A stretch of 39,448 nt of DNA from Ktedonobacteraceae bacterium (GTDB lineage Bacteria; Chloroflexota; Ktedonobacteria; Ktedonobacterales; Ktedonobacteraceae): assembly GCA_013695595.1 (NCBI GenBank), contig JACDAE010000078.1, forward strand, positions 1-39,448, written 5' to 3'. The notes below the pieces were generated by a model. It was not told the origin of the DNA, ran no database searches, and worked only from the letters and a program-made list of their open reading frames with translations. Position 1 is the first letter of the stretch. Each line of letters starts with the position of its first letter. The translations under genes were made by a program, and so were the position numbers. Of the stretch, positions 7,420 to 25,290 are shown piece after piece.

Positions 7420-8202
7420 TTATACATCTTCATCCAGCAATAATCCATGTCTCAAGGCAAAAATGGCGACCTGGGTACGATCACGCAGGTGGAGTTTCTG
7501 AAAAATCGTGGAGAGATAGTTCTTTACCGTTTTCTCAGAATAGGACAGCTTCTCTGAGATCTCCTTGTTACTCATACCCATCGCGACATAACGCACAATC
7601 TCCACTTCCTTTGGCTGCAATGTCTCGATAGTCTGACGTCCCGTGGCACCTTCAGATAAACGACGATACTCTTTGATGATCATATCCGTCATTTCCGGTG
7701 CTACAAATACGCTACCTGCACGCACCATCCTGATTGCTTCCGCAACTTCACGAGCCGATGTCGTCTTCAAAAGATACCCTCTAGCACCACTCTTCACCGC
7801 CTGCAAGACCAGCTGATTCTGCTGCTGCATACTTAATATAATCACGGCTATTTCAGGAAACTCCTGCATAACCTGCCGGGTTACCGCGATGCCATCCATA
7901 CCAGGCATATGGACATCCATCAGCACCACATCCGGACGTAAATGGCGTATCTTTTGTAGCGCTTCTACGCCATCAACGGCTTCTCCGACAACGCGAATAT
8001 CTTTTTCTAAGGAAAATAGTTGACGTAATCCTTCGCGCATCAACAGATGATCATCCACAAGTAATACACTGACCACATCGGTATGCTTCGTATCTTCTAT
8101 GCGCTTATCAAAGTTCGCAACCGTATGTGCATCCTCACTTGTGGTAGGAGAGAAAAAACCTGCCGTCGTGTACTTTCTATCATCTACATTGGGGTGGCTC
8201 AC
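7420..8202 (-). CDS. NarL/FixJ-type response regulator (REC + LuxR HTH), no adjacent histidine kinase
   Basis: VLLVDDHLLMREGLRQLF, DVVLMDVHMPGMDG, LQPKEVEIVRYVAMGMSNKEISEKLSYSEKTVKNYLSTIFQKL; GTG start at 8202 preferred (GGAGGG upstream) over TTG 8217. Confidence 0.93.
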   Translation of the reverse strand: MSHPNVDDRKYTTAGFFSPTTSEDAHTVANFDKRIEDTKHTDVVSVLLVDDHLLMREGLRQLFSLEKDIRVVGEAVDGVEALQKIRHLRPDVVLMDVHMPGMDGIAVTRQVMQEFPEIAVIILSMQQQNQLVLQAVKSGARGYLLKTTSAREVAEAIRMVRAGSVFVAPEMTDMIIKEYRRLSEGATGRQTIETLQPKEVEIVRYVAMGMSNKEISEKLSYSEKTVKNYLSTIFQKLHLRDRTQVAIFALRHGLLLDEDV

Positions 8203-8310
8203 AAGGAATCCCTCCAATCCTCATTGGGTTTTATGCTTCTTCGTGCACTGATATATCCGCTCGTTTGCTCTCTCTTTAGTATAGCAAGCGCACAATGGAA
8301 TACATCTTCC

Positions 8311-16813: not shown

Positions 16814-17557
16814 CTACTTCTCAGTGCGCGAACGTCGTCTACGGACCCAGCGAAAACCAGGATAGAGGAGAGTTAACGCGGCAATAACTAGAAATACGAT
16901 AATATAGATCACGATCGACCACCAGGGTGCTTCATTTGGCAGGAGGCCAAACACATCGTTATTGTTCACAATCATATTAGCCGCTGTGATGGCCAATATA
17001 ACACCTACAACCCACATCAGCCACGAAAGGCGTTCAATAATAAAAGAGACAAAAGCGCTCCCTATAAGCAAAAGTATGATGCTGATAACCAATCCAGCGA
17101 ATAACAATGAAGTTTGATATTTTGCCAGTGCGGCAACTGCAATAATGTTATCCAGGCTCATAGTTACATCGGCAACGAGAATTGTGAGAATAGCACCCAC
17201 AATATGATTTTTTTTTAAATAACTACCAGGCCCTTTTTTGTCATCTATATCCTCTTCGTTTGCAGAAACAGCGGTTCCATTTTTATCATTCCACCATTGT
17301 AAGAGGAGCCGAACCGTGATAATAATAAGAATGACGCCCCCAAACACCTCTATATACGGTATGTGCAGCAAAAGGGTAACGGAATAGGTAAGCAATATGC
17401 GAAGTAGAATTGCTCCACCACCTCCGACGAAAAATGCGATCCAGCGCAACTTTGTTGGGATACCAGCGGCAACTGCTCCTATGACAAGTGCATTGTCGCC
17501 ACTAAGTACGAGATCAACTAAAATAATACTACCCAGAACAGGTAGCCAACTCGCCAT
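16814..17557 (-). CDS. TerC-family (YjbE-like) integral membrane protein
   Basis: LGSIILVDLVLSGDNALVIGAVAAGIP and DVTMSLDNIIAVAALA motifs; start at MASWLPV preferred (ORF track start 17584). Confidence 0.92.
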   Translation of the reverse strand: MASWLPVLGSIILVDLVLSGDNALVIGAVAAGIPTKLRWIAFFVGGGGAILLRILLTYSVTLLLHIPYIEVFGGVILIIITVRLLLQWWNDKNGTAVSANEEDIDDKKGPGSYLKKNHIVGAILTILVADVTMSLDNIIAVAALAKYQTSLLFAGLVISIILLLIGSAFVSFIIERLSWLMWVVGVILAITAANMIVNNNDVFGLLPNEAPWWSIVIYIIVFLVIAALTLLYPGFRWVRRRRSRTEK

Positions 17558-17656
17558 ATCTAGCTCCTTATTGAGAAAATACACATAGAGAAATCATATC
17601 ATATGAGTGCTCCTTTTATTGCTTTTTTTATGCTTATTTTCCACTTATTATAATTA

Positions 17657-20600
17657 TTAGCGAAACACCCCTGCTTCTTGTAGTACTTGCTCAAGATTTT
17701 TTTCTTTTAGTAACCATTGTCGAATAAGACCAACAGCTATTCTAAAACGTGCACCATCAACCAGATGTTCGCGCAGATCATCGGCTATTTTTTCGATAGC
17801 ATCAACTACTATAAGTTCTTTTAAGGATACCGTTATCAAATCGCGCTTATAAGGTATATGGTAATGGCGATAAATTTCCTCAATTTCCACCAGTGACAGT
17901 GCCCGTCCATCTTCTCTACCTCCTTCCGCCAGGGCAGCTAAGATAATATGCTCCTCAGATGTAAGCTGATCCCAGAGCCAATCAAAGTGAAATTGCCCTG
18001 TCTCCATGACTTCTCGTAGCACAATATTCACATCGTTGATAGTGACATACGCCTTACATTTCTCGTTGCAATGATCCACCAGGGATCGACACACAAGATG
18101 CAATAAATAGGGCTGATCAGCGGTCAAGTCACGAATCTTTCGTAGAGCATATGGCTCATATTCTAGATATCCCGCGACCGGGTTAGTAATAAGCCCAATG
18201 GCGCTCTCTGCGCTCAGGCGTGAGAGTCGATGATGAAGCGCTATATTGAAGAAGACCGACCAATACCCTCTGGTAAGCTCCTCTATTTTGTGGGTACCAG
18301 AAAGGAGGAAATTGATACTGATATGATGCTGCATCAGACTGCGCAGATATTCAAATAACTCTGGTTCCAGCTTCCCATTTTTGACCTGTGTCTCCAGCAC
18401 CTCAAACTCATCAATAAGCACGATGATCTTTTGATCGACGAGTTGTGCCTCTACCTCATCTAAAAACTGGTCGAAGGCAAAAGTAGCCTGACGATCAAAA
18501 TCCTCTTTTTGAGGTTTTTCGAGGGCAATACCTCGTTTACGACACTCCTTAAAAATGTAAAACGCCAGATTATGAAAAAACGTACTGACACTGATCTGAT
18601 ACGACTCTTTTTGCATATCGACCAGAACAGGTATGTGGCGACCTAACACAGGTGTATTCACCAGATGGAGCAGCAGTGATGTTTTACCAGAACGCCGTTG
18701 TCCGTATAATACGATGACCGTCTTTGTTTCTGCTCGTGTCAGGTTATCCTTGAGGAACTCTATATCTCTTTCTCGTCCAAAGAACATCTTTTTATCGTGT
18801 GTAGGAGTGCCGGTTGAATAAAAATTTGGAATGGGTATAAATTCCGAAGCTTTCACCTGAAGTTCAAGTCGCTCGCCTTTAATGATCGTTTTCATAACTG
18901 CTTCGGCATCATCATAAATAATCTCAAAGTTCAACACCAACATTTCTGCCGCCGTATGGGGTCGAATACTAAATTCTGCATATGCTTCTTCTTGCGCAAA
19001 AATGACTTCGGTTTCAAAAGAATTTCGCCCCACTACATCGAACTCTCGATTATGCAATAGACTGATTTTTACATTGTTGGCCGCACTACGCCCGGCATTA
19101 CTGATCATCAACCAGATACCAATCTGTTCTTCATGAGGTACGCTGCGTGTCTTCAAATCTGCCGTCAATTCGGCTCTCCCGCGTAATTCCCGTAATTGTG
19201 TTGCAATGATCGCGCCCCAACGATGAAAAAGTAGTACAAAAAATTGATAATCTGGCAAGCGTGCTCTGGCATCATAGGTGAAAATTGTAGCATACTCTTG
19301 TGCGGCAAACCTGGAGATACTTTCTATCGTGCTACTAGCTTCGAGTAAACTGGAGAGGCGATCATTCAATCCTTCCCGTTTGAGATAGATACGTAGCAAT
19401 CGTGTGATGATACTCAAACGCTGGCAAATACGCAAAATGATAGAGGAGTGGAAATCATCCTGCGCAAATTCGCCTCCATCCAGATGAGGGTGATAGTCTG
19501 CAATTGCACTTAGTGTACACATCTGAAAAAGCCTATAAAATTCTTTGTAAATCAAAGATATCTCTTTGCCTTTTTTTAGGTTTTTCACCTCTTCGATTAC
19601 GCTTACCGCATACTCTATCTTCTGCAATGCGTTGGTATCATCCAGATTATCTAGCAGAGGGATGAAAGCACTAAAAACATGCTGCACAACCGATATCTTT
19701 GCATTATCCAAAAGATGGTGCAAAATACGTGTATCAATTCCTTCTGTAATGCATCTGAAGAGATTGACGAGGAGATCTTCAGGATAGTGATCCATAAAGT
19801 GTGATAGCGTGCGTGCAGCTTCTTGCCTGACCCACTCCGCCTCCCCATCCAGCGCAGCCCTGAGCACCATACTCAGAAGCAACTCTTTATAAGGAGCATT
19901 CGTGTGATCTACAAGGGAATATAACTGCCGCAGCACCAGACGGCGCACGAAACGATTGCTATTCTGAGAAAAACCTTCCAGGTACTCAAACCCTGTTGCC
20001 CAATCGTGTATGATAAGATCCTGAATTTGCTCCACAATAACCTGGCGAACCTCTTCATAGGGATCTATAGTAAACTGTGTGAGAAGACGTTTTCCCTGCT
20101 GTGGATCTTTTGCATAGCAGGCAATGATAGCACGAATCAACGCTTTACGTACTTCAACTGAACTATCTTGACAAAATGTTTCGAAAATCTCAAATGTTTT
20201 TGAGTCAAAATAGAGAGGTTCAGCAAGTTTCTGTAACGCAAATGCACGTGTAAGAGCCTCCGGTTGTGCTAGTAGCAAAGAGATAACTTCTCGTGCAGAG
20301 CGTTCTTTTTGTAATGCCTGCCAACATCGATCGATGCGTTGTTGTACCTCTCGCTGGTCTACAACCTGCAGAACTTCCAGTTGATCTTCCGCACCCAGGG
20401 CAATCTCGACGTTTCCATCATCATCAATATCTTCAACCTTGACCACGCGAATACGATCCGTTGCCCAATATTTCCAGAGAAAATCACCATCACTACTCAA
20501 TACATACAAATTGCCGTCGGCGCAGCCAAGAAAGATTTCTACTTTACCGTCACGATCTGCATCGATCGCATCAACAGCTAAAATACTATGAGGCAACCAG

Positions 20601-22612
20601 TAACGCCACCTCAAACGCCCTCTGCTATCCAGCACATGCACATTGCGATCTTCGGAACCAATCACAATCTCAACCTGACCATCCCCATCGATATCATTCA
20701 CACAGACAGCACTGACACGATCCTGGGTAGCATACTGCCACAATTCCCTCCCACTCCTGGTGTAGGCATAGACAGTATTTTTAAGGCTTCCTGCAACAAT
20801 CTTCGGCATCTCTCCCTCAGCGTGTGCGTGTGCATAGATGGTTTTAATCCCCTGGGGTGTTTCGATAATGCCAGATGGAGTTGTAAAATTCTGATCGTAA
20901 AGGAGGATCTTTTTGTCTGCCGACCCAATAATAATCTCAATGGCTCCTTGCCTTTGCTCAGCTAAAACATGAAAGCCTGTCATCCATTCATCAACAGAGG
21001 AGATACGTTTGATCTTCGGCTCACGTTTATGTTGTCCTTTTATTCCAGTAACGCCACTTACAATGGAGATACTATGATCGCTAGAACATACAACAATATC
21101 TTCCCAGCGCCCTCGATTTATGTATCCCGTCTGTACAGAGAGAATTTCCTCTCCTAGCTCCTGCGTCCAGAGCGACCGACCACTATTGGTAAAAGCATGA
21201 AGCGTCCCCTCGCTGGTACCTAAAACAACCTCACGTCGTGAATCCCCTGAGATATTGCCAAAGGAAAGGCTGCGAATGTGTCCATAATCGTCTTTTCTCC
21301 ACAACACCTGCACTTTTTGTTGCTGCAAGCGTAGGAGATTCGAGAGCGCATAGAGGTAATCCTCGTTGTCTATCAATTGCTCGACGTGTTTCAGCGTGAC
21401 CTGTTTGAGGGTCTCATGTTCCTTCATGTCTTCATCCAACAGGTCTTGCAAAAGCGCACGTTCGGCATGGGAAAGCGTCGTTAATGTCGAAATCGGTGGT
21501 TTGTCGATATGCAGATAATTACGATGGATTTTCTTAATGAGATCTCTCACCAGATGCACACGAAAGACATGCACACTGTTATCTTCGGCACCTACCAGGA
21601 TTTCTTTCTGCCCATCATTATCAATATCATTGGCATATATACTAAATACACGGGAGTCAGTTTGATGCTGCCAGATAACTTTACCCTTACCATCCAGAAA
21701 GTAGATATGTTTGTCTTCCGAACCCGCAACGAGCTTACATCCTCCATCTAGAGAAGTTTGATAAAGAGAGAGCAGGCGATTTTCAAAAGATTGACGCCAC
21801 TTTGGCTCTAGATCGGCAGTTAAAGCGGTTAATTCCTTGCCATCAGTTCCTATCAGAATTTCGATCTTCCCATCGTCATCAATATCTCCCGCTGCAAGGG
21901 TGTAGATCGAATGCTGCATACGTTTTTTTGCAAGGCAGATACCATCCTGATTAAGTACATAGATATGTTTATCTTTTGATCCAAGTAATATTTCAATGGC
22001 CCCATCATTATTGATATCATAGGCACAAAGGGCACGTATCCAACCATTCGTCGCAAATTTCCAGCGTACCGTACCATTTTCAAGATCAAGCAGGTATACA
22101 TGGCGATCTTCCGAGGCAATGAAAATATCTGTTGGTTTTTCGGGGTTAACAAGAACTTCGCGTATCACATGTTCACTTTGGAACCAGAAAGCATCCTTCT
22201 CTTGAGGATCTAACGCTTTGCCATCTTTCGCAAACCCATAGTGTTCGCCTGTCTTTGCAATTGTTTTGCCATCTTTATCCAATACATATACCCGGCCATC
22301 GCGCGTTCCTACGATGACACGCATAGGCATATCTTTCCCCTCAGTGATTCTATTTTGGGGAATAATAGCAACCGTTCCCACCCAGTCCTTCGTACCAATA
22401 ATACGTTCCCAGCGCACATCGCCTTGTTTTGTCAATGCTCTTACTCGGCCATCACGTGAACCTGCAATAATTTCGATGTCGCCATCACGATCGATATCGC
22501 CTGCACAGACACAAGTAGTCCAATTTTTCGTTTTATAGGTCCAAAGTTCCGTTACTCCGGCCAATCCTTGCGCCAGGTATCCCTGTAAATTTATATTCGT
22601 TTGTACTGGCAT
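17657..22612 (-). CDS. 1651-aa multidomain protein: FG-GAP/VCBS/PQQ-like propeller repeats, HEAT-like helices, beta-sandwich, Orc/STAND-like P-loop ATPase with C-terminal winged-helix-like region
   Basis: Seven DxDxDG-type repeat motifs (DIDRDGDIEI, DINNDGAIEI, DIDDDGKIEI, DIDNDGQKEI, DIDGDGQVEI, DADRDGKVEI, DIDDDGNVEI); VRKALIRAI/VRQVIVEQI/VRQEAARTL HEAT-like units; FFGRERDIEFLK, VLYGQRRSGKTSLL Walker A, IIVLIDEFEVL Walker B; no N-terminal signal or TM segment. Confidence 0.9.
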   Translation of the reverse strand: MPVQTNINLQGYLAQGLAGVTELWTYKTKNWTTCVCAGDIDRDGDIEIIAGSRDGRVRALTKQGDVRWERIIGTKDWVGTVAIIPQNRITEGKDMPMRVIVGTRDGRVYVLDKDGKTIAKTGEHYGFAKDGKALDPQEKDAFWFQSEHVIREVLVNPEKPTDIFIASEDRHVYLLDLENGTVRWKFATNGWIRALCAYDINNDGAIEILLGSKDKHIYVLNQDGICLAKKRMQHSIYTLAAGDIDDDGKIEILIGTDGKELTALTADLEPKWRQSFENRLLSLYQTSLDGGCKLVAGSEDKHIYFLDGKGKVIWQHQTDSRVFSIYANDIDNDGQKEILVGAEDNSVHVFRVHLVRDLIKKIHRNYLHIDKPPISTLTTLSHAERALLQDLLDEDMKEHETLKQVTLKHVEQLIDNEDYLYALSNLLRLQQQKVQVLWRKDDYGHIRSLSFGNISGDSRREVVLGTSEGTLHAFTNSGRSLWTQELGEEILSVQTGYINRGRWEDIVVCSSDHSISIVSGVTGIKGQHKREPKIKRISSVDEWMTGFHVLAEQRQGAIEIIIGSADKKILLYDQNFTTPSGIIETPQGIKTIYAHAHAEGEMPKIVAGSLKNTVYAYTRSGRELWQYATQDRVSAVCVNDIDGDGQVEIVIGSEDRNVHVLDSRGRLRWRYWLPHSILAVDAIDADRDGKVEIFLGCADGNLYVLSSDGDFLWKYWATDRIRVVKVEDIDDDGNVEIALGAEDQLEVLQVVDQREVQQRIDRCWQALQKERSAREVISLLLAQPEALTRAFALQKLAEPLYFDSKTFEIFETFCQDSSVEVRKALIRAIIACYAKDPQQGKRLLTQFTIDPYEEVRQVIVEQIQDLIIHDWATGFEYLEGFSQNSNRFVRRLVLRQLYSLVDHTNAPYKELLLSMVLRAALDGEAEWVRQEAARTLSHFMDHYPEDLLVNLFRCITEGIDTRILHHLLDNAKISVVQHVFSAFIPLLDNLDDTNALQKIEYAVSVIEEVKNLKKGKEISLIYKEFYRLFQMCTLSAIADYHPHLDGGEFAQDDFHSSIILRICQRLSIITRLLRIYLKREGLNDRLSSLLEASSTIESISRFAAQEYATIFTYDARARLPDYQFFVLLFHRWGAIIATQLRELRGRAELTADLKTRSVPHEEQIGIWLMISNAGRSAANNVKISLLHNREFDVVGRNSFETEVIFAQEEAYAEFSIRPHTAAEMLVLNFEIIYDDAEAVMKTIIKGERLELQVKASEFIPIPNFYSTGTPTHDKKMFFGRERDIEFLKDNLTRAETKTVIVLYGQRRSGKTSLLLHLVNTPVLGRHIPVLVDMQKESYQISVSTFFHNLAFYIFKECRKRGIALEKPQKEDFDRQATFAFDQFLDEVEAQLVDQKIIVLIDEFEVLETQVKNGKLEPELFEYLRSLMQHHISINFLLSGTHKIEELTRGYWSVFFNIALHHRLSRLSAESAIGLITNPVAGYLEYEPYALRKIRDLTADQPYLLHLVCRSLVDHCNEKCKAYVTINDVNIVLREVMETGQFHFDWLWDQLTSEEHIILAALAEGGREDGRALSLVEIEEIYRHYHIPYKRDLITVSLKELIVVDAIEKIADDLREHLVDGARFRIAVGLIRQWLLKEKNLEQVLQEAGVFR

Positions 22613-22733
22613 GGCAAATGCCCCTTTTCACTACCAACAGGTTACTCGTTTGCATAAAAACGGAAATGATTTTCTATAGAGAGGCTGTCACAACCAAAAA
22701 CACGCACCATGATGCACATCGTTCCACCTATTG

Positions 22734-22793
22734 ATACAATCATACTAACTTGTCTCTGTCAATCACTGACTGTAATGTGACAAATTTGTGCCA
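22734..22793 (-). promoter_or_regulatory. Promoter region of the 1651-aa gene: TGGCACA-N4-TGTCACA direct repeat (22776-22793) upstream of TTGACA-N17-TTGTAT
   Basis: Read on minus strand; same 11-bp-period direct repeat as at 22835-22852 and 24528-24545. Confidence 0.6.
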
Positions 22794-22834
22794 ATAACGA
22801 AATGCTAATTGTTTTGCTTTTTTGAGTATCATTC

Positions 22835-22852
22835 TGGCACAATTTTGGCACA
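22835..22852 (+). promoter_or_regulatory. TGGCACA-N4-TGGCACA direct repeat upstream of second ATPase gene
   Basis: TGGCACA at 22835-22841 and 22846-22852. Confidence 0.6.
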
Positions 22853-22980
22853 GATCAGTCAGAAATAGTCATAGCTGTGCTATTACAATAACATAATACA
22901 ATGGATTGATTTATAGATTTGTGCTCTACTATCCTGTATGGCATAATCTAGAGCAGCGGGACTATGACAGGAGGATGAGA

Positions 22981-24369
22981 ATGGACGGCAAAATGGACAA
23001 TCCTTATTACAATACCTCGGCTCTCCGTAACGCAAAAATGCTCTTTGGACGTATTCTTTTGCTGCGTCGCATCTACTCGGCTCTGGCGAACCAGCAAAGC
23101 ATCTCATTAGTGGGCTTGCGTCACATGGGCAAATCCTCTTTGCTGCATTGCCTGCGACAACCTGAGCTGCTGCAACAATTTGAGTATGATTTTAGTCGCT
23201 ACATTTTTGTTCTTATTGATTTACGAGAATATCGACATAAGAATAGCGAAGATTTTTTTGCGGCGATCAGCCGACAGATTATCTTACAAAGCCGGGGACG
23301 CCTTGGGAAATTGAGCCTGGACCATGATAGTGAACATATATTTAGCTTCCTTCTTGATCAAATCTCTGAGCAGAATTTTCATACTGTTCTGCTCATGGAT
23401 GCTTTTGATAATGTGACGCGCAATAGTAACTTCGATCTGTCTTTCTTCTCCTACTTGCGCTCGCAGGCGACCCTTGGCAAGGTGTCCTATGTCACTGCAA
23501 CCATTGCTCCTTTAAATAAAGTTTGCCATAGCAGCATTGAGGAATCCCCTTTCTTCAACATCTTCGGCAAATATACGTTGTCTCCCCTGGCATCAGACGA
23601 TGCTTATGCGTTGGCAACGCAACCAGCTATGCAAGCGGGTTTATCTTTTACGGAGCAGGAAGTTGCCTGTGTCCTTGAGATTGCTGGCCATCACCCATTC
23701 TTCATTCAGCGCGTTTGCTACATCCTTTTCGAAGAAAAATATCGTCTCAATGGTGCCCAGGTAGATCGTAATCGCCTCATTGCTCTGGCCTACGCCGAGT
23801 TAGAGCCATATTTTGAGAGTATCTGGGAACGCTTAGAGCTTGAAAAACAAGAGATCTTGAAAAACCAGGTGCTCTTTCAAAACGGTTCCAGCGCCGAGAT
23901 ACCAGAATTTAGTGAAAGCTCACTGTTTCGCCGCTTCGTTTCTGAAAAATTTGCGTTGCAACGCTATACTCCAACTTTTGAAGTTCTGGAGGAGGCTCTA
24001 GAAAAATTGCAAGATCCTTCTGCCCTCGGCGAAACGAAATTGCAATATCTCCGCACTGTCTCTCTCCGGGCCAGGCGTGCAGCATTAACATCTGCAGAAA
24101 AAGGGATAGCCATTCGTGAAGTACTCGCTGAAGCATTCGAGCACTTGCGTGGTACCGGCTATCGCAACGATACAGAACCCGCCTGGCAAGCATATAATAT
24201 CCTGTACTATCGTTTTTTTAAGCACCACTTGAAAAATGATCTGGTCGTTGCTCGTCTAGGCTTCACAAGTAACCGACAGTATTTTCGCGCAAGAAAGAAA
24301 GCCATTGAAGCACTACTCACTATTTTGCTTGAAATGGAGGCCCATCCAACCGAGGCCAACAAAATATAA
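22981..24369 (+). CDS. P-loop (Orc/STAND-like) ATPase with C-terminal helical/HTH-like region
   Basis: KMLFGRILLLRRIYSAL, SLVGLRHMGKSSLLHCL Walker A, HTVLLMDAFDN Walker B-like; C-term LGFTSNRQYFRARKKAIEALLTILLEME. Start at ATG 22981 has ggagg 6 nt upstream; ORF track start 22906. Confidence 0.82.
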   Translation: MDGKMDNPYYNTSALRNAKMLFGRILLLRRIYSALANQQSISLVGLRHMGKSSLLHCLRQPELLQQFEYDFSRYIFVLIDLREYRHKNSEDFFAAISRQIILQSRGRLGKLSLDHDSEHIFSFLLDQISEQNFHTVLLMDAFDNVTRNSNFDLSFFSYLRSQATLGKVSYVTATIAPLNKVCHSSIEESPFFNIFGKYTLSPLASDDAYALATQPAMQAGLSFTEQEVACVLEIAGHHPFFIQRVCYILFEEKYRLNGAQVDRNRLIALAYAELEPYFESIWERLELEKQEILKNQVLFQNGSSAEIPEFSESSLFRRFVSEKFALQRYTPTFEVLEEALEKLQDPSALGETKLQYLRTVSLRARRAALTSAEKGIAIREVLAEAFEHLRGTGYRNDTEPAWQAYNILYYRFFKHHLKNDLVVARLGFTSNRQYFRARKKAIEALLTILLEMEAHPTEANKI

Positions 24370-24527
24370 TCAGCTTCAAAAGCATTGCCCCATCGTTCTT
24401 TCGTTCTGAAATACTCACAACAATATACGAACGTGACTTACACATGCCTCAAAGCGATCTATAATCGTATCAGCAGGTATGTATTGTGGTTTCATTTCCA
24501 GAAAAAATTTTATTGATCTTATCTTTC

Positions 24528-24545
24528 TGGCACACTTCTGGCACA
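24528..24545 (+). promoter_or_regulatory. TGGCACA-N4-TGGCACA direct repeat upstream of histidine phosphatase gene
   Basis: TGGCACA at 24528-24534 and 24539-24545; followed by a weak TTGATC-N17-TACTAT promoter-like pair. Confidence 0.6.
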
Positions 24546-24630
24546 GTTCGTCATTGATCGCTGAGTACAATGTAGATACTATAGCAATTTAAATATAAAC
24601 AACTTTGTTGAATGGGAGGGGGACTCTACA

Positions 24631-25290
24631 ATGCCCACTGTTTTGTTTATCAGGCACGCTGAAAGTGAAGCCAACGCAGGTAAGCCAACTGCATATCCTG
24701 CAACTATTCAAATTACCCCAAAGGGATTTAAACAGGCAAATGCTATTGCTTCTTTTTTTACAAAAAAACCCGGTTTAATTATTACATCATCTTATAAACG
24801 TACCTATGAAACTGCTCAACCGACATTCGCTCGCTTTCCTGAAGCGCGTCACGAAGAATGGCCTGTTGAGGAATTTACCTATCTCACCCCACTCGATACT
24901 CTTACTACTTTTATTGAACGTAAACCTATGGTAGAAGCCTTTTGGCAAAAAGACGATCTATCATATGCAGATAGTGATGAAGTTGAATCCTTCACCACAT
25001 TTATAGCTCGTGTCCAAAGGGTGCTTCAACGTCTCAGACAAACCAGAGAAGATACGATCGCCGTTTTCAGCCATGAGCAGTTTATGTGTGCCATCCTGTG
25101 GCTCTTTTTGAAAAACAAGCTCGAACCAGACTCTCCTCTCTGTTCTAATAGTAAGAAGCAATTTAGAGATTTTTTAGCACTATGCCGCTTACCTAATGGT
25201 GCAATTCTACCTGTCCAGTTACAAGACGGCAACGAAACCTGGGTCAGGAATATTATTACCTCTCACCTCTCATTGGAATGCCAGTACTAA
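24631..25290 (+). CDS. Histidine phosphatase (phosphoglycerate mutase-like) family protein
   Basis: VLFIRHAESEANAGK (RHG motif variant), ITPKGFKQANAIA, VFSHEQFMCAIL; GGGAGGGGG upstream of ATG. Confidence 0.9.
   Translation: MPTVLFIRHAESEANAGKPTAYPATIQITPKGFKQANAIASFFTKKPGLIITSSYKRTYETAQPTFARFPEARHEEWPVEEFTYLTPLDTLTTFIERKPMVEAFWQKDDLSYADSDEVESFTTFIARVQRVLQRLRQTREDTIAVFSHEQFMCAILWLFLKNKLEPDSPLCSNSKKQFRDFLALCRLPNGAILPVQLQDGNETWVRNIITSHLSLECQY

Follow-up and report, generated by a model that had tools for sequence, protein, structure and literature searches.

Gene content of the P1–P2 locus

The DNA analysed here is a 39,448-nt stretch from a member of Ktedonobacteraceae (the window), in which two STAND NTPase genes, P1 and P2, are divergently oriented and accompanied by a gene for a TerC-family membrane protein and a histidine phosphatase gene, P3. 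P1 (17657..22612, minus strand) encodes a 1651-aa protein consisting of FG-GAP/BBS/PQQ-like beta-propellers (residues ~1–760), Pfam HEAT repeats (~770–860) and a C-terminal STAND/ATPase_2 NTPase domain (~1272–1500) in which the Walker A (GQRRSGKTS) and Walker B (LIDEFE) motifs are both intact; the same held for all nine aligned P1 orthologues. P2 (22981..24369, plus strand) encodes a 462-aa NTPase that matched Pfam nSTAND2 (PF20702) at 61 bits, against a cut-off of 24, and its AlphaFold model (mean pLDDT 86) resembled archaeal Orc1/Cdc6 and related AAA+ proteins. Start codons were set by homology, and translation of P2 most likely begins at ATG 22981, located behind AGGAGG, rather than at TTG 22906; its homologues all align from about this ATG. 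Alignment of 12 P2 proteins revealed an intact Walker A motif and replacement of the Walker-B glutamate (MDAFD and similar). Loss of this glutamate is not a constant of the P2 family, since a second P2 copy in the same genome (contig C608; truncated at the contig end) retains it in the sequence LLLDEFES.

The description of the locus in the first-pass annotation, although its gene calls were correct, omitted the C-terminal tail of P2 (residues ~325–462). This tail is a helical domain that was also found elsewhere in Chloroflexota. Its three best sequence-profile matches in the PDB were sigma factors (E 0.011–0.2), the alignment falling on the helix-turn-helix; Pfam Sigma70_r4 matched four of the 16 tail-domain members at lenient E-values and reached its cut-off in one homologue (L134; 24.1 bits), and a structural search of the PDB with the isolated tail returned no significant match. 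These scores are weak and point one way, to a likely DNA-binding domain resembling sigma-70 region 4. In other proteins the domain accompanies a receiver domain (L134), precedes an AAA-TPR region (L125) or follows 7TM/GAF sensor regions (L123 and numerous further proteins), partners that suggest an output domain. The domain was also present at the C-terminus of ~600–700-aa proteins of other Chloroflexota, usually once per genome (L105, L123, L131, L133, L135–L156); those scanned showed HisKA_7TM or weak GAF matches, and the proteins resemble one-component membrane regulators of no named family. No TGGCACA-type repeat of the kind described below was found upstream of other tail-domain genes in 20 loci.

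The TerC-family gene (16814..17584, minus strand) follows P1 at a distance of 72 nt, is encoded on the same strand and is likely co-transcribed with it. The same order and orientation was found at five loci: the window, G004, G010, G002 (copy c) and G014 (copy c). P3 (24631..25290, plus strand) encodes a 219-aa histidine phosphatase of branch 1 and has its own repeat-bearing promoter. The unit of P1, P2 and P3 envisaged in the first-pass annotation thus missed TerC directly 3′ of P1, and the histidine phosphatase is less supported as a core member: close P3 homologues were detected in only four of 29 family genomes, all of which were among the nine that carry the pair, and adjoined the pair in three (the window's own, G004 and G002), the G002 copy containing an internal stop codon. 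Other genes were also seen around the pair. Genes for an AAA_33/zeta-toxin-like P-loop kinase, a phosphoribosyltransferase or a polyphosphate kinase lay at or near the histidine phosphatase or TerC position in L057, L058 and L060; a conserved radical-SAM gene was convergent to the P1 end in L062, L063, L064 and L066 (in L064 behind TerC); and two Dictyobacter loci contained a 1041-aa gene within ~3 kb (NACHT-HEAT in L066; the L063 version is 45% identical).

Direct repeats and their promoter context

Analysis of the upstream regions confirmed three exact TGGCACA-N4-TGKCACA direct repeats, with the positions and strands reported in the first-pass annotation: TGGCACA-N4-TGTCACA upstream of P1 (22776–22793, minus strand), and TGGCACA-N4-TGGCACA upstream of P2 (22835–22852, plus strand) and P3 (24528–24545, plus strand). 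The similarity that it had noted 3′ of the repeats was also present (TTACAGTCAG, GATCAGTCAG and GTTCGTCA). Weaker half-sites follow the repeat at P1 (AGTCAGT, TGACAGA) and at P2 (AGTCAGA, AGTCATA), and by eye each of these two promoters contains four half-sites, the later two degenerate. The P1 repeat is followed by a -10-like hexamer, TATGAT (22739–22744, minus strand), 31 nt past the second repeat and 10 nt past the last weak half-site TGACAGA. At P2 the hexamer TACAAT (22884–22889, plus strand) likewise lies 31 nt past the second repeat; at P3 the hexamer TACAAT (24566–24571, plus strand) lies 20 nt past it and an alternative, TACTAT (24577–24582, plus strand), 31 nt past it. A standard -35/-10 scan of the window was uninformative. 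A sigma-54 promoter, considered by eye from the likeness to TGGCAC-N5-TTGC, was rejected because a -10-like hexamer follows the repeats at a set distance and the P1 copy lacks the -12 GC.

Comparison with dinucleotide shuffles of the window revealed three exact matches to the repeat pattern against 0.00 expected; at three mismatches there were eight matches against 6.65 expected, and hence only near-exact copies are informative. Five exact copies were present across the 809 contigs of the assembly (6.75 Mb), three of them in the window. The repeat is concentrated at the P1/P2/P3 locus, since the shuffles gave none and the only two other copies in the assembly (C49 and C605) both lie within long ORFs. 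The near-exact TGGCAC version was similarly rare in this genome: only four intergenic copies were clear, and three of these lie at the locus. The fourth, a near-exact copy (TGGCACAAATTTGGCACG, contig C100, G000:C100:10120-10137), lies 322 nt upstream of a gene for a 1283-aa protein with a NACHT/nSTAND3 match (L192:10459-14310, plus strand), from which it is separated by a long, hairpin-forming, MITE-like inverted repeat; this copy is a lead and says nothing on enrichment before STAND genes. Relaxed genome-wide patterns returned mostly coding matches or YafY-type sites and could not define a wider regulon. The promoter statistics below refer to targeted loci. Two related arrangements were seen in other genomes. 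One (G025, which has neither P1 nor P2) contained tandem TGGCACRTAAC units with an exact 11-bp period outside long ORFs (G025:C206 ~8194–8232; L175), and many Ktedonobacteraceae genomes had several promoters of the form TGACA/TGTCA-N5-TGTCA-N12-TATACT, for example at L070 (G021) and L072 (G007).

The element recurred at orthologous promoters, and in G004 (Ktedonosporobacter) all three genes bear it. Promoters were scored for TGKCA-N5/6-TGKCA followed by a TATAMT-like hexamer, with a gap of 9–11 nt measured from the 7-nt half-site. For the 26 promoters that lie outside the window, the combined Fisher p was 2e-13 against dinucleotide shuffles and the Mann-Whitney p was 9e-7 against controls. Both values are optimistic, since sister copies contributed some of the promoters and the rule was drawn up with the data already in view. 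Scores of at least 14 of 16 were reached by 12 of the 26 orthologous promoters and by 4 of 112 upstream regions used as controls; no clear element was visible in about half of the orthologous set. The element was also missing from L060/L061, whose recognition helix (RQVDRD) is divergent, an observation in favour of the model proposed below. An unlinked P3 homologue in G010 is preceded by TGTCAGA-N4-TGTCAGC-N3-TGACATA-N10-TACAAT, which has the same architecture. As a working rule, the last half-site (TGKCAnn) ends ~10 nt before a TATACT-like -10 hexamer, with further half-sites 10–11 bp upstream.

Distribution of the pair

P1 (at E ≤ 1e-30) and P2 (as close homologues) were present in exactly the same nine of 29 Ktedonobacteraceae genomes, among them Ktedonosporobacter rubrisoli, Dictyobacter arantiisoli, D. 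kobayashii and several Ktedonobacteraceae MAGs. Outside the window, 12 P2 loci were examined, among them paralogous copies from a single genome, and each had P1 as its divergent neighbour; the assemblies are drafts, several P1 genes are truncated at contig ends, and on contigs that stop short P1 is only partly visible beside P2. The distribution in the family was patchy. The genes flanking the pair mostly differed from those of the window and were mostly unshared between genera, so the pairing is more than general synteny. In other Chloroflexota, a P2-type gene adjoined a P1-type ATPase gene at most loci examined, in tandem on one strand, and the P2 profile matched the partner ATPase of these distant pairs at E 1e-9 to 1e-25; at a few loci no partner was found within the stretch fetched. 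The genome of the window itself contained at least two further paired STAND loci, namely a propeller-type divergent pair on contig C608 (L067) and a tandem pair of 894 and 370 aa on contig C34 (L126).

The proposal that the NTPase genes are tied together by one promoter element is thus upheld for P1 and P2, which co-occur perfectly and adjoin at every locus, with an element that recurs in other genera. Neither a scatter of the repeat over the genome nor a failure of the genes to co-occur, the two findings that the first-pass annotation had named as speaking against its proposal, was observed for this pair.

A possible transcriptional switch and its relation to known systems

The P1–P2 pairing is conserved, as are the promoter element and its spacing, and together with the domain content they led us to a tentative model, favoured here at rather less than even confidence: the locus would be a two-component STAND NTPase switch with transcriptional output, in which P2 binds the tandem half-sites. 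P1, whose STAND ATPase looks active and is preceded by propellers and HEAT repeats, would sense a ligand or partner and change its nucleotide state, as its domains suggest. It would then engage P2, a related STAND protein expected to bind ATP but lacking the catalytic glutamate; this step is drawn from the homology of both ATPase domains and from the conserved pairing. The helix-turn-helix tail of P2 would bind the tandem TGGCACA half-sites that immediately precede the -10 hexamer and recruit RNA polymerase. As a result, P2 itself, the P1–TerC unit and the histidine phosphatase, whose repeat promoters are present in the sequence, would be turned on, giving positive feedback. P2 is proposed as the activator because of its missing Walker-B glutamate and its sigma-region-4-like end, and its putative binding of the repeats is the weakest step of the model. 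Several observations speak against the model: other tail-domain genes have no such repeats upstream, the isolated tail had no structural counterpart in the PDB, the C608 copy retains the Walker-B glutamate, and many ortholog promoters, about half, show no clear element.

Little is known of how bacterial NLR-like STAND NTPase systems are regulated, and this locus brings together a conserved pair, a promoter element of its own and a candidate DNA-binding partner. The pair, which looks like a sensor-to-gene-switch system of the soil bacteria Ktedonobacteraceae, allows one to ask whether such STAND pairs act as gene switches, and it occurs in culturable organisms (Ktedonosporobacter, Dictyobacter). 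A broader version of the model appears possible, if somewhat doubtful: a NOD-like pair, in which a STAND sensor and a weakened partner turned DNA-binding activator act on the promoters of the pair, TerC and the histidine phosphatase, would constitute a conflict-type system that drives expression instead of cell killing. From the associations of the family one might guess at a stress or anti-invader role, and an anti-phage role is possible.

A serious alternative, plausible though short of an even chance, is that the pair is a real unit whose promoters answer to a separate chromosomal regulator of TGNCA direct repeats near the -10 hexamer, of the WYL/YafY or PhoB/OmpR type, the tail of P2 serving otherwise. 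The spacing rule (~10 nt to the -10, 10–11 bp period) is common to many TGACA-N5-TGTCA-N12-TATACT sites in the family, which also occur in genomes without P1/P2 and, at two loci inspected, upstream of or beside WYL/YafY genes; these sites share both the period and the -10 distance of the window promoters, but their half-site sequence is different. The E. coli pho box, with TGTCA-like direct repeats at 11 bp and the last half-site ~10 nt before the -10, is nearly identical in geometry; the consensus here is TGGCACA. A PhoB/OmpR-type regulator, as suggested in the first-pass annotation, is only one of several candidates. However, a search for a WYL/YafY gene beside the pair detected no homologue of the L070 YafY protein in 13 P1/P2 loci, the near-exact TGGCAC version is rare in this genome, and P2 has a likely DNA-binding domain of its own.

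Ktedonobacteraceae includes filamentous, multicellular-like members, in line with a second alternative, in which the NTPases kill or arrest the infected cell and the promoter only co-expresses the genes. Such a counter-invader, abortive-infection-like role, following the nSTAND2 pairs of Kaur et al. 2021, would also fit the relatedness of the two STAND NTPases, the nSTAND2 score of P2 and a pairing that is phylum-wide yet patchy in the family. We consider it unlikely, since no toxic effector domain, whether GT4, HEPN, nuclease or another, occurs in P1 or P2 and the genes are divergent rather than in an operon; PADLOC, moreover, returned no fitting defence model, only weak partial matches to PDC-S27 and PDC-S01 (NTPase modules), HEAT-ARM_XIII and mad8. 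That the repeats arose by chance or local duplication and have no regulatory meaning is very improbable: the AT-rich upstream flanks of the P2 and P3 repeats are similar, as local duplication could also produce, but the shuffles exclude a local chance origin and orthologous promoters in other genera keep the repeats at a fixed spacing.

The switch model has a counterpart in STAND transcription factors such as MalT, in which an NTPase is joined to a helix-turn-helix output domain of the LuxR type. As in MalT, a STAND NTPase is joined to a helix-turn-helix and would be part of a sensor-activator acting on repeated sites near the promoter; unlike MalT, sensing and DNA binding would be divided between two NTPases, and the helix-turn-helix appears sigma-region-4-like rather than LuxR-type.

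The closest resemblance is to the predicted mobile two-gene counter-invader system of paired nSTAND2 NTPases (Kaur et al. 2021, eLife 10:e70394, PMC8195603, Fig. 6C), and the description of the window locus as undescribed was therefore too strong. In that system the genes form a same-strand operon, a conserved arginine finger is present in both partners, and one NTPase, with eroded NTP-binding motifs, is weakened and carries a fused effector that varies (GT4 or HEPN; PMC8195603). The window locus likewise consists of two adjoining, related STAND NTPase genes, of which P2 matches Pfam nSTAND2. P2 looks catalytically weakened by its replaced Walker-B glutamate, but its Walker A is intact and the C608 copy retains the glutamate; P1 has both motifs. 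In contrast, the pairs of the window and of the family are divergent, whereas the distant Chloroflexota pairs are in tandem; the weakened partner has a sigma-region-4-like helix-turn-helix tail in place of GT4 or HEPN; the active partner contains propellers and HEAT repeats; both promoters have a common direct repeat; and TerC and histidine phosphatase genes are attached at some loci. Because the core is common but the same-strand operon and the effector fusion are absent, we regard the window pair as a variant of the nSTAND2 system rather than a strict member, one that is divergent and apparently transcription-coupled.
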